DNA of 32,661 nt, taken from NCBI GenBank assembly GCA_938083195.1, contig CALKCK010000013.1, positions 1 through 32,661 of the forward strand, in the 5' to 3' direction. Both the position numbers and the translations under genes were made by a program. This DNA is from an uncultured Pirellulaceae bacterium (GTDB taxonomy: Bacteria > Planctomycetota > Planctomycetia > Pirellulales > Pirellulaceae). The notes below the pieces were generated by a model. That model was given only the letters and a program-made list of their open reading frames with translations. It was not told the DNA's origin and searched no databases. Below are positions 5,084 to 32,661 of this stretch, in pieces (the stretch's first letter is position 1; each line of letters begins with the position of its first letter).

Positions 5084-5110
5084 GTGACCTTACGCGTGCA
5101 AAGCAAAATA

Positions 5111-6454
5111 ATGGTTTATCAAATCAAAAACGGATTGGATCTTCCAATTGAAGGCAAGCCAGTCCAAGACATTGGCGTTAGTGCAGACATTAAGTCGGTA
5201 GGAATCATCGCTGACGACTACGTCGGAATGAGACCAACGATGTTGGTGGCTGTTGGTGACCGAGTCAAACTCGGACAACCGGTTTTCGCAGACAAAAAGA
5301 CACCCGGAGTTATGTTTACTTCTCCAGGGTGTGGAACCGTCAAAGCGATCAATCGGGGAGCCAAGCGAAAGTTCGAATCCATTGAAATCGACCTTGATGG
5401 TGATGATCAAGAGATCTTCGAAAGCTTTCAAGACCTTCAGTCGATCCCGAAAGAGGCAATTGAGAAGCAATTGGTCGACTCCGGGATGTGGCAGTCTTTC
5501 CGAACTCGCCCGTTCAGTCGGACTCCTGCTTTGGGCAGTGAAGCTCATTCCATTTTCGTAACGGCGACTGACACCAATCCACTTTCTGCCGAACCTGAAT
5601 TGGTAATTTCTGAAAACGCAGAATTGTTTGTGAGTGGGCTGACCGTCATCAACCAACTCACCCTCGGAAAAACCTATGTTTGCACACGTGACGACTCGCG
5701 TGTGCCCGGCAGCGACATACCGGATGTTGAGTTCAAACAATTCAATGGTCCCCACCCAGCGGGTTTAGCCGGCACTCATATCCATCTGGTCGACCCGGTT
5801 AATGAAAACAAAACTGTTTGGCAAATTGGCTATCAAGACGTGATTGCGATCGGACACTTGTTCACGACCGGGCAACTGATGACTGAGAGGGTTGTCGCCA
5901 TTGGTGGACCGCGAACTTCCTCACCGGGCTTGTACAAAGTCAGACTCGGTGCGTGTCTTGACGATTGCATTCCAGCCGCGGCGCCCGAACTCGACAACTC
6001 CCGTGTTGTTTCCGGTTCGGTTCTTTCGGGGCGAGCATCGGAGCCATCAAAAAACTACTTGGGCAGATTCCATAACCAAATTTCTATTCTCGAAGAGGGC
6101 AACCACCGGGAATTTCTTGGTTGGCAAAAACCGGGTTTTGACAAATTTTCGGTCACCAATATTTACGGCGGCTCTTGGTTAAAAGGCAAATTGTTTCCGT
6201 TTACGACGAGCACCGGTGGCAGCAAACGCGCCATGGTTCCAGTGGGCGCCTACGAGCGGGTGATGCCGCTAGACATTTTACCGACACAGCTACTTCGGGC
6301 TTTGCTCAGCGGAGACACAGAAGAATCACAACAGTTGGGCTGTTTAGAGTTGGACGAAGAAGACCTCGCACTTTGCACCTTCGTTTGTCCTGGCAAGTAT
6401 GAATATGGTTCTGTTTTGCGTGAGAACCTGACCCTTATCGAGAAAGAGGGATAG
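5111..6454 (+). CDS. nqrA: Na+-translocating NADH:quinone reductase subunit A
   Basis: NqrA is the large cytoplasmic-side subunit of the Na+-NQR complex and takes part in quinone interaction. The start [15 protein letters not shown] closely follows the family pattern. The barrel-sandwich region follows (for example [18 protein letters not shown]), then the typical mid-protein [17 protein letters not shown] and C-terminal [12 protein letters not shown]. Starting at ATG 5111 gives 447 residues, matching the usual 445-450. An in-frame GTG at 5084 would add nine residues but overlaps the upstream dyad and has no better ribosome binding site. It is the first gene of a tight six-gene operon, and nqrB begins 7 bases after its stop. 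Confidence 0.95.
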
Positions 6455-6461
6455 ACGCACG

Positions 6462-7754
6462 ATGTTGAGAAAATTACTAGACAAGGTCGAACCACTGTTT
6501 CACAAAGGTGGGAAGCTGGAAAAGCTTTACCCGCTTTATGAAGCTAACGACACTTTCCTCTACACACCCGGTGAGGTCACCCACGGCCAAACTCAGGTGC
6601 GCGATGCAATTGATTTGAAGCGGATGATGACCATGGTCATTGTCGCGCTGATTCCTTGTATCTTTATGGCGATGTACAACACCGGTTATCAGGCTCAGGT
6701 TTTGATCGCCGGGGGCCAAGCCGTACCGACGAGTGCAACGCTCTTCGATGCAATCTGGAGTGGCAACTGGAGATTTGATGTTCTCCAGTGGTTTGGAATT
6801 CTCAATTCCAGTTTCACGTGTCCCAACCCGGGCGGCTTCTTAAGCTTCGGCAGCCTGTTTGGTTGTACGCTTCATGGTGCCCTTTACTTTCTACCTGTTT
6901 ACATCGTCTGCATGGCGGTTGGCGGTAATTGCGAAGTCATCTTCAGCGTGATCAGAAAGCACGAAATTAACGAAGGATTTTTGGTCACGGGGATGCTATT
7001 CCCACTCACGCTTCCTCCAACCATTCCACTTTGGCAAGTCGCTGTTGGCATTGCCTTCGGTGTGATCGTGGGTAAGGAAATATTCGGCGGAACTGGCCGA
7101 AACTTTTTGAACCCCGCACTCACGGGTCGGGCGTTCCTTTACTTCGCTTATCCGTTAAAAATCAGTGGCGACTCAGTCTGGACCGCCGTCGATGGCTATT
7201 CCGGTGCAACGGTTCTTGGCGAAGTGGCATTACCAGGTGCTGCCAAGATCGGAGAAACCGTCACGAACATGAATTCATCGTGGTTTCAATTTTTCATCGG
7301 CGACATCCACGGTTCGATGGGTGAAACTTCTGCACTCGCCTGTTTGATCGGTGCGGCCTTTTTGATATTCACCAAAATCGGCTCATGGCGGATCATGTCT
7401 GGCGTGGTCTTAGGAATGAGTGGATTCTCGTTCTTGCTCTGGCTACTCCCAACGACCGAATCTTGGGGCGAAGTTTCTAATATCCTGCCGTGGTGGCATA
7501 TGGTTATTGGTGGATTCGCCTTCGGAACCGTCTTCATGTCGACCGATCCGGTTTCCGCCTCGATGACACGCCAAGGCAAGTGGGTCTACGGAGCTTTAAT
7601 TGGTTTCATGACCGTCTTAGTTCGATCAATTAACCCTGCATTCCCCGAGGGAATCATGCTGGCAATCTTATTCGCCAACGTCTTCGCACCGTTTATTGAC
7701 TGGTGTGTGGTTCAGCTAAACATTAAGAGGAGGGCCGCTCGTTATGCCGCTTAA
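6462..7754 (+). CDS. nqrB: Na+-translocating NADH:quinone reductase subunit B
   Basis: NqrB is a polytopic inner-membrane subunit (430 residues, usual about 415) that carries covalent FMN and riboflavin and contributes to the Na+ pathway. The FMN attachment motif is visible as GYSGATVLG, with Thr250 as the expected phosphoester site. [16 protein letters not shown] (about 210-225) and the C-terminal [12 protein letters not shown] are typical of the family. A GAGGG ribosome binding site lies inside the end of nqrA. The last 11 bases overlap the start of nqrC, suggesting translational coupling. FMN addition would need the ApbE encoded downstream in this window. Confidence 0.96.
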
Positions 7755-8616
7755 CAAGGATTCACTACCGAACACCTTTCTCGTTGCGACAGTTCTCTGC
7801 TTGTTTTGTGCCTTCGTTGTTTCGGCAGCCTCGGTGACGCTGCGACCTTTGCAGCTTGAAAACGCCCAGAAGGACCGTCGCAATAACATTCTTCAGGTGA
7901 GTGGTTTCACTCCTGAAGAAATCGAAGAAAGTGGCGGCATCAAAAAGGTTTTTGAAAGTCGGTTCGATGTAGAAATCATTGACCTCGACACAGGCCAAGA
8001 CGCCGAAGCAGATTGCCAAGCGGCCATGAACAAGGCCAAAGACAAAGAAGTTAATCTTGGCGAAGAGTACGACCAACTCTGGGCTTCCAAGCTAAATCCT
8101 GACAAAGGCCTTAGTGAAAAACTGGACAAAAAGACGGATGTCTGCGGAATCAAAAGTCGCGAAAAGTTTTCAGAGGTTTTCATCATGAAGTCCTCCGCTG
8201 GGGAACCTGAACTGTACGTCTTTCCAGTCCGTGGAAACGGTCTTTGGTCATTGATGCAGGGCTATCTTGCAGTCAAGCCGGATTTCCAAACCGTCGTGGG
8301 CCTTACGTTCTACCAACAAGCTGAGACACCTGGTCTTGGCGGCGAGGTTCAAAACCCCGATTGGAAAGCGCTTTGGAAAGATAAAAAAATCTACGACGAC
8401 GGTGAGGTCAAGTTGGCTGTGATTAAGGGCAACAAAGCCGGTAACGCGTATGGCGTCGATGCCCTCTCGGGTGCAACGATCACGTCCAATGGCGTAACTA
8501 ACATGATCGACTTTTGGATGGGTGACAAAGGATTCGGCCCCTACATAAATGAAATGAAAAAACAGGACAGCAGCCAAATCAAAACGGAAGCTGCCGGAGG
8601 TAACAATGTCAAGTAA
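7744..8616 (+). CDS. nqrC: Na+-translocating NADH:quinone reductase subunit C
   Basis: NqrC has one N-terminal membrane helix (about residues 10-31) and an outside-facing FMN domain. The covalent FMN site is in [13 protein letters not shown], with Thr245 as the expected attachment residue. The upstream [17 protein letters not shown] motif (about 186-202) is also typical. At 290 residues it is some 30 longer than the Vibrio protein; the extra length lies mainly around residues 85-135, a charged segment with Lys/Asp/Glu and two Cys. A strong AGGAGGG ribosome binding site lies inside nqrB. Its stop overlaps the nqrD start by 11 bases. Confidence 0.95.
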
Positions 8617-9235
8617 AACATCTGCTAAGGATCTGGTGCTTGACCCGATCTTCAACAACAATCCAATTGCACTGCAAATTCTTGGAATCTGCTCCGCCCT
8701 AGCGGTTACCACCAAACTTTCTACATCCCTGACGATGTCGTTTGCGGTAATTGCAGTTACTGCCTGCTCAAGTGCTGCCGTCTCCCTAATCAAAGATAGG
8801 ATTCCAAGCAGCATTCGAATCATTGTTCAAATGACGATCATTGCGTCCTTTGTAATTTTGGTGGACCAAGTCCTCAAAGCGTATGCATTCCAACTGAGTA
8901 AGGAACTTTCGGTATTCGTCGGCCTCATTATTACGAACTGCATCGTGATGGGACGTGCCGAAGGCTTTGCCATGAAGAACTCTGTTTCAGACAGTTTCTT
9001 CGATGGAATTGGAAACGGACTTGGGTATAGCATCATCTTGATGGTCGTTGGTTTCTTCCGAGAACTATTTGGAAGTGGAACACTATTTGGTTTCACCGTC
9101 TTCGCAAAACAGTCTGCAGGCGGTTGGTACGAGCCCAATGGTTTAATGCTACTTTCACCAAGTGCATTTTTCATTATCGGCATATTCATCTGGGTGCTTA
9201 GAACCTGGAAGCCAGAACAGGTGGAGGAAGCATAA
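8606..9235 (+). CDS. nqrD: Na+-translocating NADH:quinone reductase subunit D
   Basis: NqrD is a six-helix membrane subunit (209 residues, standard size). With NqrE it binds an iron centre in the middle of the membrane. The two ligand cysteines are visible: Cys29 in [13 protein letters not shown] and Cys112 in [15 protein letters not shown]. The latter half has the family sequence [14 protein letters not shown] and [18 protein letters not shown] ribosome binding site lies inside the nqrC end, so translation is probably coupled. The next gene starts 2 bases after its stop. Confidence 0.95.
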
Positions 9236-9237
9236 CC

Positions 9238-9831
9238 ATGACAGATCTCATTGAACTATTCCTGCGGTCGGCTTTCGTCGACAATCTTGCACTCGCCTAT
9301 TTCTTAGGGATGTGTACGTTTCTCGCAGTTTCCAAGAATGTCAAAACAGCGATTGGGCTCGGAATCGCCGTAATCGTCGTTCAGGCGATCACCGTTCCAG
9401 TCAATCAATTGATTTTGAATCTCTTTCTAAAAGAGGGCTCGTTCTTCCTACCAAAATACAACTTGGAATTTCTGAGTCTAATTTGTTTCATTGGCGTGAT
9501 TGCGGCGATGGTTCAGATTCTCGAAATGACTCTCGATAAATTTTTCCCCTCGCTTTACAACACGCTTGGCATCTTTCTGCCTTTGATCACAGTTAACTGT
9601 GCGATTCTGGGGGGAACCCTGTTCATGCAGCAACGAGATTACGCTTTCGTCGAGAGCGTTGTGTTTGGCGTTGGCGGCGGGTTTGGCTGGGCGTTGGCCA
9701 TTATCGGCCTCGCCGGCATCCGAGAGAAATTGAAATACAGTGATATTCCCCACGGGCTTCGCGGGTTAGGTATTACGTTCATCATCGTTGGCCTTATGGC
9801 TTTAGGATTCCAAGCGTTCCTTGGAATCTAA
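9238..9831 (+). CDS. nqrE: Na+-translocating NADH:quinone reductase subunit E
   Basis: NqrE is the six-helix partner of NqrD with inverted topology (197 residues, standard size). The two remaining iron-ligand cysteines are Cys26 in [15 protein letters not shown] and Cys121 in [13 protein letters not shown]-terminal [19 protein letters not shown] is typical. A GGAGG site spans the nqrD stop. The gap to nqrF is 77 bases, the longest inside the operon. Confidence 0.95.
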
Positions 9832-9908: not shown

Positions 9909-11126
9909 ATGGAAATTATATTCGGCGTTGCCACCTTTACCGTTGTTGTTCTCGCTTTGGTAGGACTAATTCTGCTGGCGAAGAGCTTTTTGGTTTCGAG
10001 TGGAAACATCAAGATTCTTGTCAACGATCAGAAGGAAATTAGCGTTCCTGCTGGCGGAAAATTAATGAGTGCCCTCGCAGAAGAAGGAATCTTTGTTTCC
10101 TCAGCCTGCGGAGGTGGTGGAACCTGTGCTCAATGTGAAGTCAAGGTTCTCTCCGGCGGCGGAGATATCCTGCCGACAGAAACAGGGCACATTAGTAAGC
10201 GAGAAGCTCGTGAAGGCTGTCGCCTCTCATGTCAGGTTGCTGTCAAGCAGGATATGGTCGTCGAGGTTCCAGATGAAGCGTTCGATACCAAGAAGTGGGA
10301 GTGCACCGTTCGGTCAAACCACAACGTTGCTACCTTCATCAAAGAGTTGGTGCTCGAATTGCCCGAAGGCGAAGACGTCAACTTCAAGGCGGGCGGCTAT
10401 ATTCAAATCGAAGCACCTCCCCATGTCGTCGAGTACAAGGACTTCGCTATCGAAGACGAATACCAATCCGACTGGGACAAATACGATGTCTGGCGTTATA
10501 AGTCGGTTGTTGAGGAAGAAGTCATTCGGGCCTATTCGATGGCAAATTACCCGGGAGAAAAGGGCATCATCATGCTCAACGTCCGCGTTGCTTCTCCTCC
10601 GCCACGGATGGACAACGTACCCCCGGGAAAAATGTCCTCGTTTATTTTCAACCTCAAACCAGGCGATAAGGTGACCATTTCTGGTCCCTACGGTGAGTTT
10701 TTCATCAAAGAAACTGAATCCGAAATGCTCTACGTTGGCGGTGGAGCCGGCATGGCGCCCCTGCGAAGTCACATCTTTGAATTGTTCAAGAGTTTGAAGA
10801 CTGGCCGAAAGGTTTCATACTGGTACGGCGGACGAAGCCTGCGTGAGTTGTTCTACATCGATGAATTCCGTGCTCTCGAAGAAGAATTTCCTAATTTCCA
10901 GTTTAACTTGGCACTTTCCGAACCGCTTCCTGAAGACAACTGGACGGGATACACAGGGTTTATCCACCAGGTCGTGATAGACAATTACCTTCAGGATCAC
11001 CCGTCACCAGAAGATATCGAATTTTACTTCTGTGGCCCGCCAATGATGAACAACTGCGTCATGAAAATGTGTGATGATTTTGGCGTTGAACCAGAAAACA
11101 TCTCCTTCGACGATTTCGGTGGCTAG
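9909..11126 (+). CDS. nqrF: Na+-translocating NADH:quinone reductase subunit F, NADH-oxidising
   Basis: NqrF takes electrons from NADH to FAD and then to a 2Fe-2S centre. It has an N-terminal membrane helix (about 3-27). The ferredoxin domain (about 33-125) has cluster ligands Cys67, Cys73, Cys76 and Cys108, in the usual spacing. The FAD-binding motif RAYSMANYP is at 207-215, and the nucleotide-binding [14 protein letters not shown] is at about 275-288. The C-terminal [10 protein letters not shown] and FDDFGG complete the ferredoxin-reductase module. The length of 405 matches the family. The ribosome binding site is weak. It is the last structural gene of the operon; a long hairpin follows at 11209-11268. 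Confidence 0.96.
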
Positions 11127-11346: not shown

Positions 11347-11808
11347 ATGATCGTAAGATTGTCCATCACGACCATATTGTTTGTTTTATTCGTAGGCAGC
11401 AACCAACCAGTTGAAGCCCATGATATCTTTCAAGATGTACTCAAAGAAAAATACACTTTAAAATCTTTCTCCTGCAAAACATGTCACCCAGACAGTGACG
11501 ACCGAAAGCTCCGCACACCGTTCGCTGAGCGTATTTATCAACAGATGAAAGATTTGGGTCTTTCAAAAAAGTTTGCCGAGGCGACAGCTATTGATGAAGC
11601 AGCCAAAGCGAAGGATCCTGAATCGGTCGGCAAAGAAAAAGGGGCAGTCTATGAATTCGAGAAATTAGCGGCAAAGGATTTCGATAAAGCTTTCGTAAAA
11701 GTTGCCCAACAAACGATGACCATTGATCAGATCATCAAACAGGGTTTGTTTAATGGAGCTCGGCTCGACACCAAAGCCATCGAAGCAGCCAAACAAGCCG
11801 AAAAGTAA
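11347..11808 (+). CDS. Small exported CxxCH protein, probable monohaem c-type cytochrome
   Basis: This 153-residue protein has an N-terminal hydrophobic signal (about 4-17) with likely cleavage after PVEA at residue 24, so it should be periplasmic. A single haem c attachment motif, Cys43-Lys-Thr-Cys46-His47, lies in the CKTCHPDSDDRK region. The rest is charged and helical, with many Lys/Ala/Glu, and no recognisable distal Met ligand pattern. It does not fit a standard cytochrome c family that I can name. It sits 220 bases after nqrF and 96 bases before the apbE-like gene on the same strand, so a role beside the Na+-NQR is suggested by position only. Haem binding is inferred from the motif. 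Confidence 0.7.
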   Translation: MIVRLSITTILFVLFVGSNQPVEAHDIFQDVLKEKYTLKSFSCKTCHPDSDDRKLRTPFAERIYQQMKDLGLSKKFAEATAIDEAAKAKDPESVGKEKGAVYEFEKLAAKDFDKAFVKVAQQTMTIDQIIKQGLFNGARLDTKAIEAAKQAEK

Positions 11809-11904: not shown

Positions 11905-13194
11905 ATGAAATCATCGAACCTCGGCTTACGACGACTTTACGCCACCCTAGCATTTACTTGCTCGGTCTGGCTGCTTTCTTCGCTCGTTCATTCCCAGGAC
12001 GATGTAAGCGTGCCGTTCGAAATTTCTGGCAAAACGATGGGACCGATTGCCTACAAAGTCGTCATTGCGGATCACCCCGATTCCGTCACACCCATTGAAC
12101 TGCAGGAACGTGTTGCCGAGGTTCTTGAAAACATCAATCAGTTGATGTCCACCTATCAACCCGAATCAGACGTGAGTCGTTTTAATCGATCCCAGTCGAC
12201 AGAATTTCAAACCGTTGATCCAAAAACGGCGGCAGTCGTCGCTCGAGCAATCGAAATTAGCAAACTGACTGAAGGGGCATTCGACATAACGGTCGGTCCG
12301 GCGGTTAACTTGTGGGATTTCGGCCCCAAAAATTTAGATTTTAAGATTCCGACGGTATCGCAAACCGATGCAATTAAATCGTCGATTGGATATCAGTATC
12401 TCGAGGTTCAACTTAATCCTCCTGCAATCAGCAAGAGTGTGGCAGCAGTGAACATTGACCTCTCTGCCATCGCCAAAGGCTATGCAGTTGATCAAGTCGC
12501 AACCGCGATGGACGACTTGGGATGCAAAAACTTTCTGGTCGAAGTTGGCGGTGAAGTGTTTGCAAGTGGCGAACGTTTTTCCGGAGGCAACTGGAGAATC
12601 GGTGTGGAACGCCCCGATGACGCTGGAGTCACCCTAGGTAATATCGCTGAGATTTCAGATGAAGCGATGGCAACCTCGGGAGACTATCGAAATTTCCATG
12701 AACTTGGTGGAATTCGATACTCGCACACGATCGACCCGAAGACTTGCCGTCCCGTTAAACATACGCTTGCCTCTGCATGTATCATTTTCAAAGATTGCAT
12801 GACCGCAGATGCATTGGCCACAGCAATGATGGTCATGGGGAAAAACAGAGGCGAACAACTTTGTCAGGAATTAGGCGCAGAATATTTATTGGTTGAACGA
12901 GAGTCGGACTTTGGAGACGAACTAACCGAGTTCAAATCCAAATCGTTCCCACTGCTGGACGCTCCCCAACCAAACAACTCGCCGACAATTCTCCAACAGA
13001 TCCTACCTGTTTTCATAGGGGCAGTGGTCATCTTTGGGCTGGTGATCATTTCAATGTCCGTGGGAGCAATTTTTGCGAAAAAACCAATCACAGGTTCATG
13101 CGGCGGCTTAGCCAACCAAACCAACGATGACGGAGAAACGAGTTGCGGCATCTGTTCGAAACCGACTACCGATTGCGTTGAGAAAAACGACTGA
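11905..13194 (+). CDS. apbE: ApbE FAD:protein FMN transferase with a C-terminal NqrM-like domain
   Basis: Residues about 38-350 form an ApbE domain, which transfers FMN from FAD to Thr in SGAT motifs such as those of NqrB and NqrC. Landmarks are KTMGPIAYKV (43-52), LSAIAKGYAVDQV (186-198), EVGGEVFASGE, MATSGDYRNF (255-264), SHTIDPKTCRPV, and the metal-binding region CMTADALATAMM (298-309). A signal or anchor helix (about 10-28) places it outside the membrane. The unusual part is the tail: a hydrophobic helix at about 366-390, then KKPITGSCGGL (392-402) and Cys414, Cys417 and Cys424. This is the signature of NqrM (DUF539), a maturation factor for the Na+-NQR iron centre that is usually a separate small protein. 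The topology is consistent, with ApbE outside, one helix, and the Cys cluster in the cytoplasm. It follows the nqr operon. The ribosome binding site is weak. Confidence 0.92.
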   Translation: MKSSNLGLRRLYATLAFTCSVWLLSSLVHSQDDVSVPFEISGKTMGPIAYKVVIADHPDSVTPIELQERVAEVLENINQLMSTYQPESDVSRFNRSQSTEFQTVDPKTAAVVARAIEISKLTEGAFDITVGPAVNLWDFGPKNLDFKIPTVSQTDAIKSSIGYQYLEVQLNPPAISKSVAAVNIDLSAIAKGYAVDQVATAMDDLGCKNFLVEVGGEVFASGERFSGGNWRIGVERPDDAGVTLGNIAEISDEAMATSGDYRNFHELGGIRYSHTIDPKTCRPVKHTLASACIIFKDCMTADALATAMMVMGKNRGEQLCQELGAEYLLVERESDFGDELTEFKSKSFPLLDAPQPNNSPTILQQILPVFIGAVVIFGLVIISMSVGAIFAKKPITGSCGGLANQTNDDGETSCGICSKPTTDCVEKND

Positions 13195-22160: not shown

Positions 22161-25100
22161 ATGTTCAAATGGATCTACGCGCAGAATTCCAAATCAAACA
22201 AGCCCAATTCACGAAACAAATCGAATCTCGCCTACGGCCCACTCGAACCAAGGCAACTTCTGGCGACCACCGCTACATTTACCGGAGGTGAATTCACGCT
22301 CACCGGTGACATTGGAGCAGACGATTTTGTCATTCAAGTTGACTCCAATAATCGCCTAACTTGGAGCGAAAACGGTGGCACCCCTTCGGATGACTTAGAT
22401 AACACGGCTCCAGGCGTACAGTTTTATGAAATGGGCAATCCCGCTACTCCCATTTCAGTGACCATCGAGGGAAAAGGTGGACAGGACACGGTAGAATTTG
22501 ATATTGGGCCAAATATTGGCCTTAAAAATGTCACAGTTGATGGTGGTGCAAATATTGATTCGCTCACCATTCAAAGCGACCTTAATCTTCTACCCACCGG
22601 CGGAAAGCTCAATGTAAAAGTTGAGCAAAACACCGTTGCTGACAATTCGTTTATCGCAGCGCCCCTTGGATTCACCATTAAAGATCCTGGTTTCGACGGG
22701 AACATCGCCATTGGTGACAACGTCACCATCTCCACGAGGGCAATTGCTCCCGGTGGTGATCACTTTACTGATCCATCAATCGAAGACTCAGCCAATATTT
22801 CCCTGCAATCTAAAGAAATCAGTGTAGGCGATGGAACTTCATTCCTTGCCGATGTCGAAGCTGGCTCAATCAATACGCCGGCGGACGTTACGCTTGACGC
22901 CCAAGATCAACTCGCAAGTTTTCTTGAATTCGTTTCACTCATTGATGATTTAGCTGCGGGCACCGTCAGTGTTGGTGACGCCCTAAAATTTCTCAACCAA
23001 GAAGCTACAGCCTTTGTCGATTTAGGCACGGTTGAAATTCGAGGCCGAGACATAACCATCAAGGCGTTTGCGGGTGGAACTTCAGAGATCCCCTCAATTA
23101 AAAAAATCATTCAGGCGATCTCCGACCCAAATATTTCATTCCTCGAAACAACCGCTGACTTCCTCGACGGTCAACTTGACGATTTTATTACATCGGCGAC
23201 TGACTTGCCCGCGTTCTTCGCTAAAGAAAAAACGTCTGCCACCGTCACCATCGGAGAGGGTTCAATCATCGATGCGGCAAGTGAAGTAAAGATATCGGCA
23301 AAAACAGATAGTCATGAAACCGTTAAGGTAAAAAGTAAATACCAGGCAATTGCCGTCATGCTCTCTGAGTCCAATGCCGAGGTCACAATCGAAGAAGGGG
23401 TTCAAATCGACGCCCAAAATCAAGTCGAGATAAAAGCGGATGTTGATCTATCCTCAAAAGCCGAAGCGACCACCGAAAAAAACAAAGATCCTGCAGACAC
23501 CGAAGAACGACTCTCATTCGCGCTTGCCTTGGCCAAAACTGATTTGAGCTCAACGATCTATATCGCACCCAATTCAAACATTTCGGCAGGCACTGATGTC
23601 ACCATCCATGCGAAGGGAAAGCAAAAAGCGAAGAGCAAAGCCTCAAGTAGCGTCTACACAGAAGGTGGAATCGGCTTAGTTCTGGCTTTCTCATTTCCAA
23701 CTTCTAATGTCGCCGCGGAGGTTGAGGGAAACGTAACCGCCTTCACCGGGACACCCGGTTTTGAAGATGATCAAGGGATTACAATTAAGGCGGAGCTAGA
23801 CACGGAGGAAGAATCCGTAGCGCTTTCAGGCCTCGGTGGAAAAGCAAAACCTTTTAAGCCAAATACTACTGTAGCCAATGTAAAAACGTTCTTTACTAAA
23901 AAAATAAAACCAATACTGGTTGCCTTAAAACTCAATAATTTGACCAATGGCACCAATGTGCCAATTGACTTTGCCAGTGCTTTGGCCTTAAACGAAGCTA
24001 ATAACGATGTCCTCGCACGGGTGGGGAGCGAATCAAACCTCTATTCCAATCAAGATATCTTAGTTAAATCTCGATTAGAATCGCTAACGCGAACATTAGC
24101 AGAAAGTGCCATCGAAAATAAAACTTCCGATGCAGGCAAAGAAAATATGATCAGCACAGCGGTTGTTGTTGGCCTTTACAACAACAGTTCTCGTGCAATC
24201 CTGGATAATGGTGCAACTGCGGATGCAAAAAGAGAAATCAAAGTCGACGCAACTACCACCTATCCCTTCAAGGAGCCAGTCAGCCTAATCGAAAAAGGAT
24301 CAACTCGGGTATTGAAATTGAAAGGCAATTCCTGGGCGCGAAGTCATAGCCTCAATGGAAAGTCCACCATTGCCGGTTCTCTTAACTACCAAGATTACAA
24401 CACGACGACTCACGCCAAGATCGGTGCGGAGGCAAACATTAATCAGTTGCCCGCCGCGTGGGATATCGATCAATCTGTCAAAGTGAATGCGGCGACCAAC
24501 TTTATATTGGTTGACATAACCGGCGTATTCGAGCTTGATATCGTCTTAGCCGAAGTATTGAATAGCAGTAGTTTTTTTGCCACCCTTAATAACGATGGTT
24601 TCATCGAATTCACGAAGGCTCTTTGGAAGGCCGTCAAAAAGGACTATAAAACTTCGGATATTGGACTCGGTACCGATGCGAAAAACACAGCGGTTGGTGG
24701 TGCCTGGTCATTTACGGATATTTTTGATGATACCGAAGCTAGTATCGGAGAAAATTCAAATGTGCGTGCAGGGCTCGATGGAAGTGTCACGGTAACGGCA
24801 ACCTCAAAATTAAAACATCTTTCATTCGCCGCATCCGGCGGTAAATCAGAAAAAACGGGAATTGCAGGTAGCTTTGCTCACAATCGCCAAATCACGAACA
24901 CTCGCGCATTTATCGCGCAGGGCTCGCAGGTAACCGCCGGTAAAATATCTGTTGCGAGCAACAGTGACGCCAGTAATTTTGCCTTCGCGGGATCAGCAAT
25001 TCGAAGCTCAAATTATGGATTCGGCGCTTCCATCGCCACCAACAAAATCAATCGAACAAACCTCGCCTATATCGGATCACCGGGCGAACTTTTGTATGAA

Positions 25101-28100
25101 TCTGCGTTCGTCGCCCCCGGTGGTTTGTCGGTTAAAGCCACTTCCGGAGGGGGGTTCTATGCCAATGCATTGTCAGGTGTTGTTCCCTCAAAAGGAACTG
25201 CGTCCAACGTAGCACCCAGCACAACACCTCCAGCTTCCATTCCCATTCCGGCTAACTTTGTAAGTAAAGGGAAGACCGGAAAATTCGGCTTAAGTGTTTC
25301 CGCGGACGTTGCCATCAACAATGTGAAAGACGATACCCAAGCCTACATCAACGACGGTGGAACGTTTATGGCAAAAGACGTATCGGTGTCAGCAAAAAGT
25401 AAAGCGCCCTTGATTGCTGTCGCCGGATCGGCCGCCATCAATGGCAAGGAAGACTCCGTCGGACTGGCTGGGACTTACACCCATAATATTCTGACTGGTT
25501 CCGCAAAAGCCTGGATTGAAAACTCAACAATCCAGACAACTTCCGGAGGACTTTCAATTATCGCAGAGCGGGAAAAGGGCGGAAGCCTCTGGTCCATCAA
25601 CGCTTCGTCTGCTTCAGCAGGCAATGTTGAAGTCGCTGGAAACGTTTCGCTCAATAAGACCAATTGGATTACAGAATCGGCTTTGCTTCTCGCTGACGTT
25701 CACTCCGCTGCTGGAGCAACCCTCTCGGCTCAGGATAATTCAAAGGTCTGGAGTTTTGCTGGAGCGGTTGATTTTTCCGGAAAACTTGGTTTCAGCTCTT
25801 CCTTTTCCAAAAATGACCTGACCACGACAACGAACGCTCTCGTCGAGGGATCTCAATTGGAATTAGAGCGTGACCTTTCCCTCAGTGCCGTCAATCGAGC
25901 TAAAATCACTTCCGTGGCGGGCGGTTTTTCCAACGGAAAGAAGTTGGCCGTCGCGGGAACGATCGCACTCAATGAAGTTAACAGTACTGTCAGCGCTCGC
26001 GTCGCAGGAGGTTCCGACGTCACTGCAACCACTGTGAATATTACCGCAACTGACGACTCCGATATCCTTGCCGTATCCGGCGCCGCTACCGTCGCGAAAG
26101 GAAGCGGATTTGTCGGTGGCTTCGCAGGAAACAACGTACAACAATCCGTTCACGCTGAAATTGACCAATCCACGACCGACACGACCGGGAGTAGCTCCGT
26201 CAAAGCGGAATCCAAAGGTCGAATCCAAAGCTTCACCGCTGGAGTCTCAATCCAAGACCAGTTTGCATTCGCGGGTTCGATGGCGATCAATAATATTCAA
26301 TCGGACACAATCGCCAAAATCAATCAAAGTGATGTGGAGGCGGGGGGCCAAATCAATGTTCAAGCCGCCTCCGACGGAACAATCAATGCCTTCTCGGGAA
26401 ATTTTGCTGGCGTAGGATCTGCAGCGGTGGGTGCTGCAGTTAGCATTAATAACCAAACAAACAACGTCGAATCATCGATTGTTGAGTCCGATATTCAAGC
26501 AGAAGAGGGCTCCGTCAACGTCTCAGCAGATACCGAATCAATCGTTCGATCGCTCGCAGTCGGGGGAGCCTACGCTGAGGTTTTCGCCCTAGGTGGAAGC
26601 GTTTCGACCAATAATATCAATTCTAGTACCGACGCACACATCACAAGCTCTTCTGTTACAGCTGGAAGTGACACTTCAGTTACTGCCAGCAATCAGGACA
26701 CGATTAAAGCGCTCACTGGCGGTATTGCCGCAGCATCAACTGCAGCCGTCGGAGCTGCAGTCGGAGTCAACAAAATTGACTCAAACCTCCGTGCCTGTAT
26801 CGTTGACTCAGTAGTCACCGTCGCCGGCGATGTCGACGTTTCGACACTAAATCAATCTGAAATAGAAAGTTTATCCATCGGAGGAGCGTACGCTGGCACC
26901 TTTGCCTTAGGTGGCTCTGTCTCCGTAAATCAGATCGATGTTGATAATCGAGCCTGCATCATGGGTGATTCAACCGTCACCGCAGGGGGAGATATTACGG
27001 TCTCGGCCGTTGATGATTCTTCCATCAAAGCGCTCGCGCCAGGACTGGGAGTATCCGGAACCGCAGCGGTCGGCATTGCCGTGGTCGATAACGACATCAA
27101 TCGTGAAATTGAAGCCACAATCTCAGGTTCAACTGCCACCGCCGGTGGAGACGTTACCACCACTGTGGACGTAAAAAGCCTTCAAACCGGTATTGGAATC
27201 GGTGGAGCACTTGCTTCCGCGGTTGCCATCGCAGGCTCAAGCGTCAGCAATCGTGTTGACCAAACCATTGGTTCTTCTATCGCGAACGGTTCTCACGTCA
27301 CCGCGGGGGACGATGTCGTTGTCCAAGCTCACGTAGACAATTCGCTCAACACCAACGTCGTCTCCGGTGCTGGATCGAACGGATTTTCACTCGCCGGCTC
27401 AATCGCTACCGTGCATGTCGACTCTGAGGTCACCTCCCGTATAGGCGATGCAGTCACTATCGACGCGGGACAAAATGTCGTCGTCGAGTCAGTTGACACC
27501 ACAACGGTCGACTCTCTAGCAGGCACAGGAGCCGTTGGAATTGCCGCAGCTGGTGTGGGAGCAAGCGTGAGCACCGTTCAGGTTCACAAAAACACGCTCG
27601 CCTTCATCGGAGAGAATTCGAATGTCTCAGCTGCAACCGACATGCTGCGACCAACAACGGTTTACGACGGAGAGTACAATTCTGCCGGAGACTTTTTATC
27701 TGAACAGATTTTTGGTGTAGCCGTCCAGGCGACTTCCAATGAAGAAATCACAAATCTTAGTGCGACCGGTGGGGTTGGCTTGTACGCCGGGGTCGCCGGA
27801 GCAGTAACTGTCGAGGTTATTAGCCCACATGTAGAAGCGTGGATTGGCAAGAACTCGGTTGTGGATGCGAACCATGCTGGAATTGACATCGATCCGAACG
27901 ATCCAAATCATGAAAAACAATCAATAAACGTGAATGTCTCCGCGGTCAGCAATCTTACCGTGAATTCAACTGACGGTGCTGGTGCGGTGGGTGCGGCAGG
28001 TATTGCTGGGGCCGTGGACGTCGGCAAGATCGATCATTTCGTGTGGGCTCATATTGATGCCGACGCGAAAGTATCCGCCTACCACGACGTCGACCTTCAT

Positions 28101-31100
28101 GGTCTTTCTCAGATCGACGTAAAATCGGAAGTTGGAGCCGTCGGTGCGGGCGTGGCTGGACTTTCGGGGTCAGTCTCGGTTTGGAATATCGGTTCCGAAT
28201 TTGATACCGACTACTGGATCGAAGGGGTCAAATCGAGTGCGATTGACGCCGATGGCACGACAATTGATGTCTTCGCCAGCGATGCTGCCAGTGTTACCAC
28301 GTCACGCAGAGACACTTTCAATAATACAGAAGATTCAAAACCTAAAACGCTGAAGGATGACCTTCATTCCAAAGACGGCCCTTCTGGAGTCATCGCGACA
28401 GTCAAACAAACGGCTGAGGTTATCGCTGGAGATGACGTCGATGTCAGAGCCAGAGAATGGATGCTGATTGATAATTCGGCCGGCGGGGTAGGAGTTGGGA
28501 TTGCTGGCGTTGGAGCATCGGTGGCTCTGGTGAACGTCCATAGCGACACTGAAGCAAATGTATATGGCACCGTCAGCGCGGAAGACGATATTTTTGTTCA
28601 GGCCAGTCTTGAGGAAACCAACAGTACCCGCGCCTGGGCCGGTCAAGGAGGGTTGGGGGCAATCGGCGCCTCCGTCGCAGTCGTCAATGAATCGAGTGAC
28701 CAAACTGCTCGCGTCACACATGACGCGACGGTTGTCAAAGCGGATCAATTAAAAATCAAATCCGACGTTATCCAGTCGCTTGAAACAAAGTCCAACCAAG
28801 CTGTTCTCGGATTGGGAACGGTAGGAGCCTCTGTTTCAAAAATCAACGCAGATGGCACCACCGAGGCCTACATTTCAGATTCGACCATTGGGCACGGCAA
28901 AACCCCGGCGGGCGGAGACAATCCGTGTGATACCGGAATGGCCACGGTTAACAATGTTCAAGTTAAAACCAACGCCAACATTAATTTAGAAAGCAAAGCA
29001 ACCGCGATCGACGCCGGTATTGTCTCTGGTGCCGGAACGATCGCAAAGGTCAATGCAACTCCACAGTTTTTGACATGGGTTGGAGACGGATCTCACCTGC
29101 AAATTGCAGAAAATCTATTAGTCAAAAGCAATACATTGATTGACGGAACCACGGATGCACTGGGAGTCTCTCCTCTCAATGGTGTAAGCTATGGCGTTGC
29201 AATCTCAAAAGCGACCGTTCAACCGATCATCCGAACGCACCTAGGCGAAGTCAATGCCTGTGTCGGAACCGATGTCGCGATCCAATCAAATAATTTTTCC
29301 AATGCCACATCCGAAGGACAGGCAGTCACCATCGCAGTCGTCAACGGCAATGGATTGATTGCGAATGCCTTTGCTAAACCCGATGCCCGAACATGGCTAG
29401 GGGACCGAACGACTCAGCTAGAAGTCGGGAGGGACGTCTTGGTTGCCTCCAACGTCACACAGAATGCAGAAACAGACGCACATGGACTCACGGTCGCTTT
29501 GGTGGGCGGCGGGGTAATTCGAAGTCTCGCTGACGCCTCGGGCTACATCTCAACCGAGGTGGGCCGCAGTGTCGATCTTGTGGTTGGAAACAATCTCTCC
29601 GTAATTTCAACCGTCGATGGCGATGCTGATGCCTTTGCCACAGCTCCCGGCGGTGGAATCTTTAACTTCTTTGGAACGCGTGCTAATTCGCACGCCTCAT
29701 TCGATTCCAACTCGATGATCTCATCCGTGTCCAATCTAGATGTCGGCGGAGACACGCTTGTGGAGGCAATTTCCAATCGAAAATCTAATGCAGAAATCGA
29801 CGCCTTCAATTTATCGGTGGGTGCTGCCATAGGAGCAACGAAGGCAAACGCGTATTCCGAAGGTAAAACGATCGCCAGTGTCACGGGCAAGATCAATCAA
29901 ACCAATGATTTAATGATCAACGCAAATGACAAAAACATTACCACATCCCGAGCAAAGTCGACTGAAATTGGCCTAATTTCAGGAGCGGGTGTCAAGTCGA
30001 AGGTACACGTCAATCCAATAGTAAAATCCGAACTCTCCTCTTCTGTCAATTCCGCCGGCAATATCGCAATCAGCTCAAACTCAGACTCTAAAGTCCAGGC
30101 TCATGCCCAAACACTTGGCGTCAGCGGAGCGGGTGCTGGACGAACCGAATCTACTGTCGATGCTACACCAAATGTAACGTCGAGGCTCGGTGCCAACGCC
30201 AGTGTAACCGCGTTTGGCGATCTGAACATTTCCGCGGATCAATCGCTAAATACCCTCACCGGTGGAGCAGCCTCAGTGACTGGCGAAGGTGGACAAATTG
30301 GAATCGGCTTGAGTGGCTTAGCACTTAACCTAGATGCCTCAGCCGCCCCTCTGGTGACCGCAAAAATCCAATCGGGAGCTTCCGTCGTCGATGTACAAGA
30401 TCTCACGGTCACTTCATCATCAGTTAATCAGCTCTCCGCACTAGACGAGTCTTATAGTATCGGCGGACTGCTGAGTGGTGGAAAAAGCAAATCGAACGTC
30501 CAGAGCGGCGGCGTCGTCACCAGTGCTGTGAATGGAGCCATTGGAAAGGTCGATGACGTAACCATCTCTGCCAGTGCCACTGGAATATCGAATGCCGAAT
30601 CCACAGCAGGCAGCTACTCTCTAGGCATTGGCCTCGGTGGAGCAAACACAAATACGTCCGTCAATCATCAAGTGGCTTCCAGGCTTAATTCAGACGTCTT
30701 CGCCACGGGCGACGTCACCGTTGTCGCCGAATCCATTGGCGATGCCAATTCAAATTCAAAAGCGGTTACCGTTGGCGGCCTTGCAGGGGTTGGAAATACT
30801 TCGGCAACTTCTGGGGTAGCCCCTTCCGTCGAATCGAAAATTGGCCCCCGCACGAACGTCCATTCGGCAGGTGACATCACAGTTGAATCTCGCCACAACG
30901 TTGATGACTTCGGAAACCGCTTAAATTATGGTGCTGACTCAAAGGCCGAATCAGCGAACGTCGCAGTCGGGCTGAGCTTTCAAAACACCAAAGCAATTGC
31001 CAATTCAAAACCAATTCTTAATTCAGTGGTAGACAATTCAGCAAGCCTCAATGCTGGATCGGGAATCGACGTCACGTCAAATTCGTTTAGTGACTCAAAG

Positions 31101-32661
31101 ACTGACGCCGATGGTTATGTCTTCGGACTGGTCGCAGCAGTGGGGAGTATCCGTTCCGAAGCAACCTCAGATGGTTCAACGAAATCCACACTAAACGATA
31201 TAGATTCCGCTATCGCCAACGATGGTGATATCAACATTGTCGCCGAGAGTCGTAGCAATGCTGATGCGAACGCAAAGGTCGGCGGAGGTGCTGCTGTAGT
31301 CGGTGCCAATGCGGCCACATCAACCGCAACATCCGCACCGGTCGTGCTAACCCATGTCGACTCCCGCAACCCTATAACGACAGAACGAACCTTTGACGTC
31401 AACATCGTCTCCAATGTCTCCGGCGACGTCACCTCTGCCGCGAAAGAAACCGGGGTAGCAATAGGGTTCAACACTGGCAGTGTTAAAGCCAACGCTAACT
31501 GGGAACCCACCGCGAAGACTACCGTGGGCAACGACACACCCATTAATTCGGGTGGAGACCTATCGATCAAAGCCTATAGCAATTACCTCGATAACGGAAA
31601 TGCTGACACGGATAGAAAAGTCATTGCCGACACAACCTCTCAGGGCGGCGCACTCTTTGGAGGACGGGTGGCCCGATCCAATGTCGACCTTCGCCCCGTC
31701 GTCCATGCCCAAATTGGAGGCGGCGTTGAGCTTGAGGCACTTTATGATTTTGAGTTATCAGCGCGGTCAAATAACATTCTTGACCTAGACGCAACGACAA
31801 AACTGATCGGTTTGGCAGGAGTCTCCAAAGCATTCGCTCATGCAGACGTATGGATCTCAACCCGGGCTGAGACACAACCGTCAACGATTCAATCCACGAT
31901 CGTTGCTGGCGGGGACATTGACTTCGATAGCGAGACACTTTTTACCGCCGATGCCTATAGCAAGGCCCGAGCCAAGACCCCATTGGCGTTCAGGAAAGCA
32001 TCATCCATTATCGACACCCACCTTTTAGACACACTATCGATTGTCGATTCGGTTGACCTTTCCGCTGCAATCGATCTGAATATTATTGCTGAAAAGATCA
32101 AGCAGGCTTCCACAACTGCGATCGTATTCGTTGGAAGTGCAACGTCAGAGATCAATGACACAAACGTTTCGACCAAAACCATATTGTCTAATTACACCGC
32201 CACCTTTGGTAACACTTACTCGGATATGGAAATCCACCCGTTCGACCCAATCATCTCAAAAGCGAATGCAATCATTCTTGACGATCTCCGAATAAGCAAA
32301 ACAGATTTCGAAACCCTTCTGAAAAAAGGATTTATCTCAGCCAAAGCGAACATTTCCACCAATGCTCTCATCTTCGCCCAATTGGCCAGCGACAAAGAAC
32401 CGACGTCGGGAAACACAATCAAGGTAATTGCCGAATTGAAAAAACTTAAAACGGACGCTGTTGCAGAGTTCAGGACGAAACGAAAAGGCAAGTTTGATGT
32501 GCAATCCACTGAAAAATTAGACCTCACAGTAGTTGCGGACTTTCCCTTTGTCAAAACCATCAAGAAGACCTTTACTGAAAGCCCTGACCGAGCACTCAAA
32601 TACAAGGCAAAGATCATTTGGAAAGCGGATCGAAGTCGAGGATTCAACTCTTTGATCGGAT
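22161..32661 (+). CDS. Giant LEPR-XLL repetitive beta-strand surface protein, 3' end beyond window
   Basis: One frame is open from ATG 22161 to the window edge, at least 3,500 codons with no stop. ATG 22161 is the only start after the in-frame stop at 22122, though no ribosome binding site is seen. The polar N-terminus carries LEPRQLLA at residues 28-35, the LEPR-XLL motif found at the start of very large planctomycete and other bacterial proteins; no ordinary signal peptide is seen. Residues about 36-350 form a distinct N-terminal region. From about 360 on, short beta-strand units recur with the pattern (A)xIxxxSxVxAGxDVxVxA followed by a Gly/Ala-rich stretch and a VNxI turn. Units of 53-54 residues are clearest at 26355-27317. 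The pattern resembles filamentous adhesins of the Fusobacterium LktA type. A long beta-helical surface or secreted fibre is inferred; no catalytic domain was found. Confidence 0.9.
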   Translation, partial: MFKWIYAQNSKSNKPNSRNKSNLAYGPLEPRQLLATTATFTGGEFTLTGDIGADDFVIQVDSNNRLTWSENGGTPSDDLDNTAPGVQFYEMGNPATPISVTIEGKGGQDTVEFDIGPNIGLKNVTVDGGANIDSLTIQSDLNLLPTGGKLNVKVEQNTVADNSFIAAPLGFTIKDPGFDGNIAIGDNVTISTRAIAPGGDHFTDPSIEDSANISLQSKEISVGDGTSFLADVEAGSINTPADVTLDAQDQLASFLEFVSLIDDLAAGTVSVGDALKFLNQEATAFVDLGTVEIRGRDITIKAFAGGTSEIPSIKKIIQAISDPNISFLETTADFLDGQLDDFITSATDLPAFFAKEKTSATVTIGEGSIIDAASEVKISAKTDSHETVKVKSKYQAIAVMLSESNAEVTIEEGVQIDAQNQVEIKADVDLSSKAEATTEKNKDPADTEERLSFALALAKTDLSSTIYIAPNSNISAGTDVTIHAKGKQKAKSKASSSVYTEGGIGLVLAFSFPTSNVAAEVEGNVTAFTGTPGFEDDQGITIKAELDTEEESVALSGLGGKAKPFKPNTTVANVKTFFTKKIKPILVALKLNNLTNGTNVPIDFASALALNEANNDVLARVGSESNLYSNQDILVKSRLESLTRTLAESAIENKTSDAGKENMISTAVVVGLYNNSSRAILDNGATADAKREIKVDATTTYPFKEPVSLIEKGSTRVLKLKGNSWARSHSLNGKSTIAGSLNYQDYNTTTHAKIGAEANINQLPAAWDIDQSVKVNAATNFILVDITGVFELDIVLAEVLNSSSFFATLNNDGFIEFTKALWKAVKKDYKTSDIGLGTDAKNTAVGGAWSFTDIFDDTEASIGENSNVRAGLDGSVTVTATSKLKHLSFAASGGKSEKTGIAGSFAHNRQITNTRAFIAQGSQVTAGKISVASNSDASNFAFAGSAIRSSNYGFGASIATNKINRTNLAYIGSPGELLYESAFVAPGGLSVKATSGGGFYANALSGVVPSKGTASNVAPSTTPPASIPIPANFVSKGKTGKFGLSVSADVAINNVKDDTQAYINDGGTFMAKDVSVSAKSKAPLIAVAGSAAINGKEDSVGLAGTYTHNILTGSAKAWIENSTIQTTSGGLSIIAEREKGGSLWSINASSASAGNVEVAGNVSLNKTNWITESALLLADVHSAAGATLSAQDNSKVWSFAGAVDFSGKLGFSSSFSKNDLTTTTNALVEGSQLELERDLSLSAVNRAKITSVAGGFSNGKKLAVAGTIALNEVNSTVSARVAGGSDVTATTVNITATDDSDILAVSGAATVAKGSGFVGGFAGNNVQQSVHAEIDQSTTDTTGSSSVKAESKGRIQSFTAGVSIQDQFAFAGSMAINNIQSDTIAKINQSDVEAGGQINVQAASDGTINAFSGNFAGVGSAAVGAAVSINNQTNNVESSIVESDIQAEEGSVNVSADTESIVRSLAVGGAYAEVFALGGSVSTNNINSSTDAHITSSSVTAGSDTSVTASNQDTIKALTGGIAAASTAAVGAAVGVNKIDSNLRACIVDSVVTVAGDVDVSTLNQSEIESLSIGGAYAGTFALGGSVSVNQIDVDNRACIMGDSTVTAGGDITVSAVDDSSIKALAPGLGVSGTAAVGIAVVDNDINREIEATISGSTATAGGDVTTTVDVKSLQTGIGIGGALASAVAIAGSSVSNRVDQTIGSSIANGSHVTAGDDVVVQAHVDNSLNTNVVSGAGSNGFSLAGSIATVHVDSEVTSRIGDAVTIDAGQNVVVESVDTTTVDSLAGTGAVGIAAAGVGASVSTVQVHKNTLAFIGENSNVSAATDMLRPTTVYDGEYNSAGDFLSEQIFGVAVQATSNEEITNLSATGGVGLYAGVAGAVTVEVISPHVEAWIGKNSVVDANHAGIDIDPNDPNHEKQSINVNVSAVSNLTVNSTDGAGAVGAAGIAGAVDVGKIDHFVWAHIDADAKVSAYHDVDLHGLSQIDVKSEVGAVGAGVAGLSGSVSVWNIGSEFDTDYWIEGVKSSAIDADGTTIDVFASDAASVTTSRRDTFNNTEDSKPKTLKDDLHSKDGPSGVIATVKQTAEVIAGDDVDVRAREWMLIDNSAGGVGVGIAGVGASVALVNVHSDTEANVYGTVSAEDDIFVQASLEETNSTRAWAGQGGLGAIGASVAVVNESSDQTARVTHDATVVKADQLKIKSDVIQSLETKSNQAVLGLGTVGASVSKINADGTTEAYISDSTIGHGKTPAGGDNPCDTGMATVNNVQVKTNANINLESKATAIDAGIVSGAGTIAKVNATPQFLTWVGDGSHLQIAENLLVKSNTLIDGTTDALGVSPLNGVSYGVAISKATVQPIIRTHLGEVNACVGTDVAIQSNNFSNATSEGQAVTIAVVNGNGLIANAFAKPDARTWLGDRTTQLEVGRDVLVASNVTQNAETDAHGLTVALVGGGVIRSLADASGYISTEVGRSVDLVVGNNLSVISTVDGDADAFATAPGGGIFNFFGTRANSHASFDSNSMISSVSNLDVGGDTLVEAISNRKSNAEIDAFNLSVGAAIGATKANAYSEGKTIASVTGKINQTNDLMINANDKNITTSRAKSTEIGLISGAGVKSKVHVNPIVKSELSSSVNSAGNIAISSNSDSKVQAHAQTLGVSGAGAGRTESTVDATPNVTSRLGANASVTAFGDLNISADQSLNTLTGGAASVTGEGGQIGIGLSGLALNLDASAAPLVTAKIQSGASVVDVQDLTVTSSSVNQLSALDESYSIGGLLSGGKSKSNVQSGGVVTSAVNGAIGKVDDVTISASATGISNAESTAGSYSLGIGLGGANTNTSVNHQVASRLNSDVFATGDVTVVAESIGDANSNSKAVTVGGLAGVGNTSATSGVAPSVESKIGPRTNVHSAGDITVESRHNVDDFGNRLNYGADSKAESANVAVGLSFQNTKAIANSKPILNSVVDNSASLNAGSGIDVTSNSFSDSKTDADGYVFGLVAAVGSIRSEATSDGSTKSTLNDIDSAIANDGDINIVAESRSNADANAKVGGGAAVVGANAATSTATSAPVVLTHVDSRNPITTERTFDVNIVSNVSGDVTSAAKETGVAIGFNTGSVKANANWEPTAKTTVGNDTPINSGGDLSIKAYSNYLDNGNADTDRKVIADTTSQGGALFGGRVARSNVDLRPVVHAQIGGGVELEALYDFELSARSNNILDLDATTKLIGLAGVSKAFAHADVWISTRAETQPSTIQSTIVAGGDIDFDSETLFTADAYSKARAKTPLAFRKASSIIDTHLLDTLSIVDSVDLSAAIDLNIIAEKIKQASTTAIVFVGSATSEINDTNVSTKTILSNYTATFGNTYSDMEIHPFDPIISKANAIILDDLRISKTDFETLLKKGFISAKANISTNALIFAQLASDKEPTSGNTIKVIAELKKLKTDAVAEFRTKRKGKFDVQSTEKLDLTVVADFPFVKTIKKTFTESPDRALKYKAKIIWKADRSRGFNSLIG
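26355..27317 (+). repeat. Six tandem 53-54-residue coding repeats
   Basis: Units start at 26355, 26517, 26676, 26835, 26997 and 27156 (54, 53, 53, 54, 53 and 54 codons). Each runs from a V-x-A strand, through a Gly/Ala-rich segment, a VN/NN turn and an S-x-V-x-AG-x-D end. Two unit types alternate: one with the STAAVGAAVGVN type core, the other with GGAYAGTFALGGSVSVN. Similar but less regular units occupy most of the rest of the giant gene. Repeats are diverged at the DNA level. Confidence 0.8.

Follow-up and report, generated by a model that had tools for sequence, protein, structure and literature searches.

An ApbE–NqrM fusion protein encoded beside the nqr operon of a Pirellulaceae bacterium and its likely role in Na+-NQR maturation

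The primary paper on NqrM as a maturation factor for the iron centre of the Na+-translocating NADH:quinone oxidoreductase (Na+-NQR) is reportedly that of Kostyrko et al. (2016). PMC12174285 and PMC6209661 describe ApbE as attaching flavin mononucleotide (FMN) to NqrB and NqrC, and NqrM as needed for the NQR iron centre, a role worded there as seeming or predicted. According to PMC12052999, ApbE is exported and acts on exported targets, and most characterised ApbEs are lipoproteins. Here, we analyse a stretch of 32,661 nucleotides (the window) from an uncultured Pirellulaceae bacterium (assembly GCA_938083195.1, contig CALKCK010000013.1), in which a complete nqrABCDEF operon is followed by a gene at 11905–13194 on the forward strand that joins apbE and nqrM. 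We consider it likely that its product, one protein predicted to span the inner membrane once, carries out both of the specific maturation tasks for the Na+-NQR whose genes lie upstream. No description of an ApbE–NqrM fusion was found in the literature on NqrM, DUF539 and ApbE, in a search of partial texts that left most subscription papers outside; databases do contain the domain pair, as precomputed Pfam columns show.

Identity and predicted topology of the fusion protein

The gene is a single open frame of 429 aa, and its product joins an ApbE domain, a membrane helix and an NqrM tail. PF02424 matches the protein at 277.8 bits (curated cut-off 25.6) and PF04400 matches the tail at 23.9 bits, a narrow margin over the curated cut-off of 22; of the NCBIfam models, that of ApbE alone matches, under its own cut-off. 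Because the PF04400 margin was small, we built an independent NqrM profile on 43 unfused NqrMs from outside the planctomycetes. With this profile the tail scored 59.6 bits, all 55 collected fused proteins were recovered and none of 2000 shuffled tails was listed. The tail also has the architecture of NqrM, in which a helix is followed by GSCGG and then by three further cysteines.

A predicted signal peptide occupies residues 1–30 (11905–11994) and ends in LVHS; it corresponds to a helix at residues 6–29 of the AlphaFold2 model, carries no lipobox at its end (the lipobox rule is negative) and, judged by eye from the sequence, has a cleavage site of the signal-peptidase I type. The ApbE FMN-transferase domain, predicted to be periplasmic, covers residues 38–350 (12016–12954) according to Pfam and structure comparison. 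His274 (12724–12726) aligns opposite the catalytic His257 of Vibrio cholerae ApbE, the position at which the H257G chain 6nxj differs from 6nxi. A single membrane helix at residues 362–390 (12988–13074), seen in the model and in hydropathy, is held in common with NqrM. The remaining NqrM tail (13075–13191), assigned by Pfam, alignment and profile, is predicted to be cytoplasmic and contains GSCGGL at 13093–13110 and cysteines 399, 414, 417 and 424. His274, GSCGG and all four tail cysteines are invariant in 41 aligned fused rows. The model as a whole has a mean predicted local distance difference test score (pLDDT) of 85.4, with a confident ApbE domain and a linker at residues 351–360 scoring 57. 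All 39 best Foldseek rows were ApbE-type structures, and a structural aligner concurred over residues 32–356; these fold searches do not bear on the tail. If ApbE is exported here as it is elsewhere, the one helix that follows would put the cysteines inside, and the predicted topology is ApbE outside, four cysteines inside and one membrane pass. That nature has joined NqrM to an enzyme of the exported kind is evidence for an NqrM N-terminus outside and cysteines inside.

In the draft genome of the source organism (91.9% complete, 68 contigs), the fusion gene is apparently the only one for either ApbE or NqrM. PF02424 gave a single match, the fusion gene. Used by itself, PF04400 overlooks many planctomycete NqrMs (it matched in 36 of 392 genomes at E-values up to 0.01, and in 23 above the cut-off), so a further profile, A1, was made from 7 fused and 15 unfused rows; PF04400 above its cut-off and A1 each gave one match in this genome, both the fusion gene. 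A degenerate GSCGG DNA pattern occurred in 28 places, and only in the fusion gene was it in frame after a strongly hydrophobic stretch. A second nqrM or apbE is likely, although not certainly, absent, given a completeness of 91.9% and the fact that such genes can escape a genome search. The latter was seen with genome G024, in which the search gave no NqrM, whereas the Thalassoglobus polymorphus protein P0046 is fused; P0046 used as a query against G024 returned two other ApbEs only. Genome searches, that of the source genome included, can therefore miss an NqrM. A preliminary description of this DNA had proposed a fusion beside the nqr operon on the strength of the sequence, with a tail that should match NqrM, no separate intact nqrM in the genome, and an ApbE domain outside opposite a cysteine cluster inside. 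One frame with both Pfam domains downstream of nqrABCDEF bears out the first; the tail match is significant by both profiles, no separate nqrM was found in the draft, and the predicted topology agrees.

Distribution, membrane anchor and origin of the fusion

Among 392 genomes of the phylum, NqrA was found in 62 above cut-off and in 69 at E-values up to 1e-30. Sixty-three of the 69 were profiled for NqrM, six with weak matches being excluded (G029, G031, G051, G114, G354 and G388); NqrM was present in 51 of them at E-values up to 2e-9 and in 57 at up to 0.01, while none of 20 nqrA-lacking genomes (those listed by the NqrA search, not a random draw) had a match at up to 0.01. A class survey, in which the 15 best candidates per genome were scored, found NqrM at E-values up to 1e-6 in 123 of 397 genomes, with one match each. 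In 54 of these 123 loci, NqrM is fused to ApbE, in 60 the genes are separate and adjacent, and 9 are other. All but one were scored by script; the last, G361, has an NqrM far from any ApbE found. The eight scripted 'other' loci comprise five without ApbE in the fetched stretch, one with ApbE on the opposite strand, one cut at a contig edge and one not recognised. At L290 (G594), L292 (G662), L311 (G464), L317 (G397) and in G361, nqrM either has no apbE nearby within the fetched stretch or has one on the other strand. Fused loci are spread over three families and 27 of 56 genera, and no genus has both fused and adjacent loci. The fusion is common in the class and not a one-off, and the idea that it is peculiar to the source organism was rejected.

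All 15 named planctomycete loci from a pattern scan are fused, a biased sample rather than a census, as the patterns were made from fused planctomycete tails. A named Thalassoglobus neptunius protein is also fused, and two further searches with other fused tails returned one protein (a near copy of the query) and 15 proteins, the two named ones being from Thalassoglobus. Outside the planctomycetes, the same scan gave no fusion among 44 loci (41 separate, 3 not scorable). Two Endozoicomonadaceae loci, L135 and L150, were tried as fused and rejected; their apbE and nqrM share a reading frame and are kept apart by just one stop codon. Several Endozoicomonas ApbEs have an apparent N-terminal membrane helix and no lipobox. 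NqrF was present in the fetched stretch of 56 of the 60 unfused pairs (a 57th through another locus of that genome, L045), and of the fused genes in 33 of 46 newly fetched and 2 of 8 earlier genomes (the source genome and G307), which leaves 19 of 54 fused genomes without it; the NqrF counts are lower bounds, since some stretches end at contig ends.

The two arrangements differ in how ApbE is likely to be held at the membrane. In the first planctomycete set, a lipobox rule matched 26 of 26 unfused and 2 of 23 fused ApbEs, the 26 of 26 being fitted, as the rule had been loosened after its misses were seen, with fusion state not used in it. The class set gave 51 of 60 unfused against 7 of 54 fused ApbEs, and its rows not used for setting the rule gave 33 of 42 against 7 of 46. 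Among database fused proteins with a full N-terminus, 5 of 42 matched, and 12 more were too short to score. Two loci labelled as paralogs in the first tree, L071 and L075, adjoin nqrF and are in neither lipobox count; one of them has a lipobox. The NqrM helix has thus probably replaced the lipid anchor in fused ApbEs, an association that we grade as suggestive because it is clustered on the tree.

In 15 of the 60 unfused adjacent pairs, apbE and nqrM share one frame with a single intervening stop, so that they would become one gene if that stop were lost. The fusion probably arose in this way, more than once or with later splits. The best tree of 113 rows (53 fused, 60 unfused) needs nine state changes, three of them forced by starred branches, and a smaller set (23 fused and 26 unfused within an 81-row tree) needs five, one of them forced. 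A single origin is not firmly rejected by the approximately unbiased (AU) test, with p values of 0.078 (quick method) and 0.192, respectively; repeated fusion or fission is likely, not proven. In the first tree, 25 of the 44 loci from outside the planctomycetes were used together with 34 planctomycete loci from the genome searches, among which duplicates, L034 and loci without ApbE had been left out; the second omitted one fused row at a contig edge, the eight class loci neither fused nor adjacent, and G361. L102, L104 and L106, whose tails the tail pattern had missed, were set by hand to fused. The appearance or disappearance of a stop codon at the apbE–nqrM junction, accompanied by a switch of anchor, seems to be a simple route that recurs.

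Maturation of Na+-NQR and alternative explanations

The likely targets of both activities are encoded upstream of the fusion gene, where all six nqr genes lie on the forward strand and exceed their NCBIfam cut-offs: nqrA (5084–6454; TIGR01936, 550.9 bits), nqrB (6462–7754; TIGR01937, 520.6 bits), nqrC (7744–8616; TIGR01938, 216.2 bits), nqrD (8606–9235; TIGR01939, 323.9 bits), nqrE (9238–9831; TIGR01940, 300.4 bits) and nqrF (9909–11126; TIGR01941, 672.3 bits). NqrB and NqrC have SGAT motifs at residues 247–250 and 242–245, and NqrD (Cys29 and Cys112) and NqrE (Cys26 and Cys121) have the cysteines that we take to be ligands of the iron centre. In the mechanism that we favour, a cleaved signal peptide would export the ApbE domain, which would use flavin adenine dinucleotide (FAD) to load FMN on the threonines of the SGAT motifs in NqrB and NqrC. 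The enzyme would be kept at the membrane by the NqrM helix, replacing the lipid anchor of most unfused ApbEs, and the cysteines of the cytoplasmic tail may assist in making the iron-sulphur centre that lies between NqrD and NqrE, or in its insertion. Such a fusion suggests that flavin loading and the building of the iron centre converge on a common site of NQR, and it gives one point of attachment by which NQR assembly intermediates could be pulled down.

Several observations weigh against this account. The tail is poorly modelled, at a pLDDT of about 50, and no NqrM turned up when solved structures were searched with a profile. Charge bias of the positive-inside kind is modest: across 54 fused proteins, lysines and arginines are more numerous after than before the second helix in 35, fewer in 10 and equal in 9. 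As to the anchor, the first, stricter PROSITE-like lipobox pattern matched only 19 of the 26 unfused ApbEs, with 2 of 23 fused. Of the seven fused class proteins that match the loosened rule, L230, L264, L265 and L285 look genuine, so the swap is not absolute, and 8 of the 60 unfused ApbEs have no lipobox, most with an N-terminal helix instead (by eye). Finally, the clustering of the association leaves 1 and 3 independent pairs on the starred branches of the two trees, too few for a sign test; in the second tree, L228 was set by hand to lipobox, its cysteine lying outside the rule window.

Whether the two parts act together is a separate matter. They may work independently in a passive fusion whose sole effect is to stand in for the lipid anchor or to keep the two factors in a constant proportion, a possibility for which we judge the chances to be about even and which is compatible with the core of our explanation, as it concerns coupling. 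The lipobox pattern and the single stop in the shared frame of those 15 unfused pairs fit it, as does a second flavoprotein in the source genome. This is a 593-aa membrane protein (L169, G000:C7, at about 39681) with two FMN_bind domains, one of them above cut-off, and two SGAT motifs, which we take to be NosR/PceC-like. It was the only other FMN_bind protein found in the genome, in a search for FMN_bind proteins in which other NqrB/RnfD-type targets were not sought. Because the fusion gene is the sole ApbE found, its ApbE part probably serves this protein too and is probably not devoted to NQR alone. On the other hand, the retention of the fusion in genomes without a nearby NqrF hints at a benefit from joining, and an anchor alone would not need the cysteines that are invariant in 41 rows.

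A stronger version, in which the protein is a two-faced assembly factor that docks on nascent Na+-NQR, with FMN loading outside and the NqrD–NqrE centre inside forming one coordinated step, we hold only tentatively and regard as doubtful. The preliminary description had suggested that flavinylation and iron maturation could be coupled through a shared membrane point. Such coupling may occur; both the second SGAT flavoprotein in a genome with a sole ApbE and the 19 of 54 fused genomes without NqrF in the fetched stretch count against a strict form of it. If the protein were such a two-faced factor, the recurrent planctomycete fusions would show that the two factors already form a complex in other bacteria.

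It is improbable that the product is a precursor which a protease cleaves within the linker to yield two separately acting proteins. The linker does vary in length and is modelled with low confidence, but most fused ApbEs have no lipobox, and a cut would free a soluble enzyme. Likewise improbable is a tail that has lost its iron function and serves as a membrane anchor only, with iron maturation carried out by something else: 12 of the 63 nqrA-bearing genomes have no NqrM at E-values up to 2e-9, so NqrM may be dispensable in some, but GSCGG and the four cysteines do not vary among the fused rows, and no second NqrM was found among the 15 best candidates of each fused genome. An assembly or frame artefact of one contig, conceivable for a draft in 68 contigs, is refuted by the counts, since the fusion occurs in 54 class genomes, including the single-contig G291 and G307, in the T. 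neptunius protein and in the 15 named planctomycete loci of the fused-tail scan.

Neighbouring genes and comparison with known systems

Between nqrF and the fusion gene, the window encodes a small protein of 153 aa (11347–11808, forward strand) with a signal-like N-terminus and one haem-type CxxCH motif, for which no Pfam family was found at E-values up to 1. A CxxCH-bearing relative lies near the fusion in 10 of the 15 named planctomycete loci. Further downstream, an open frame at 22161–32660 on the forward strand encodes a giant protein of at least 3500 aa and continues past the end of the window; it had no Pfam match at E-values up to 0.001.

The fusion protein resembles the periplasmic ApbEs of PF02424 (V. 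cholerae 6nxi, Escherichia coli 2o18) in its fold, catalytic histidine, predicted export and the SGAT motifs of the adjacently encoded NqrB and NqrC, but it has no lipobox and instead ends in a membrane helix with the tail of NqrM. With NqrM (DUF539, PF04400) it shares one helix, GSCGGL, three further cysteines and the company of nqr genes, although it is not a small free protein, its N-terminus being joined to an ApbE domain. ApbE is also fused in nature to fumarate reductase; the ApbE of that fusion is intracellular, whereas the one described here has a predicted location outside the cell membrane, across which it is linked to another maturation factor.
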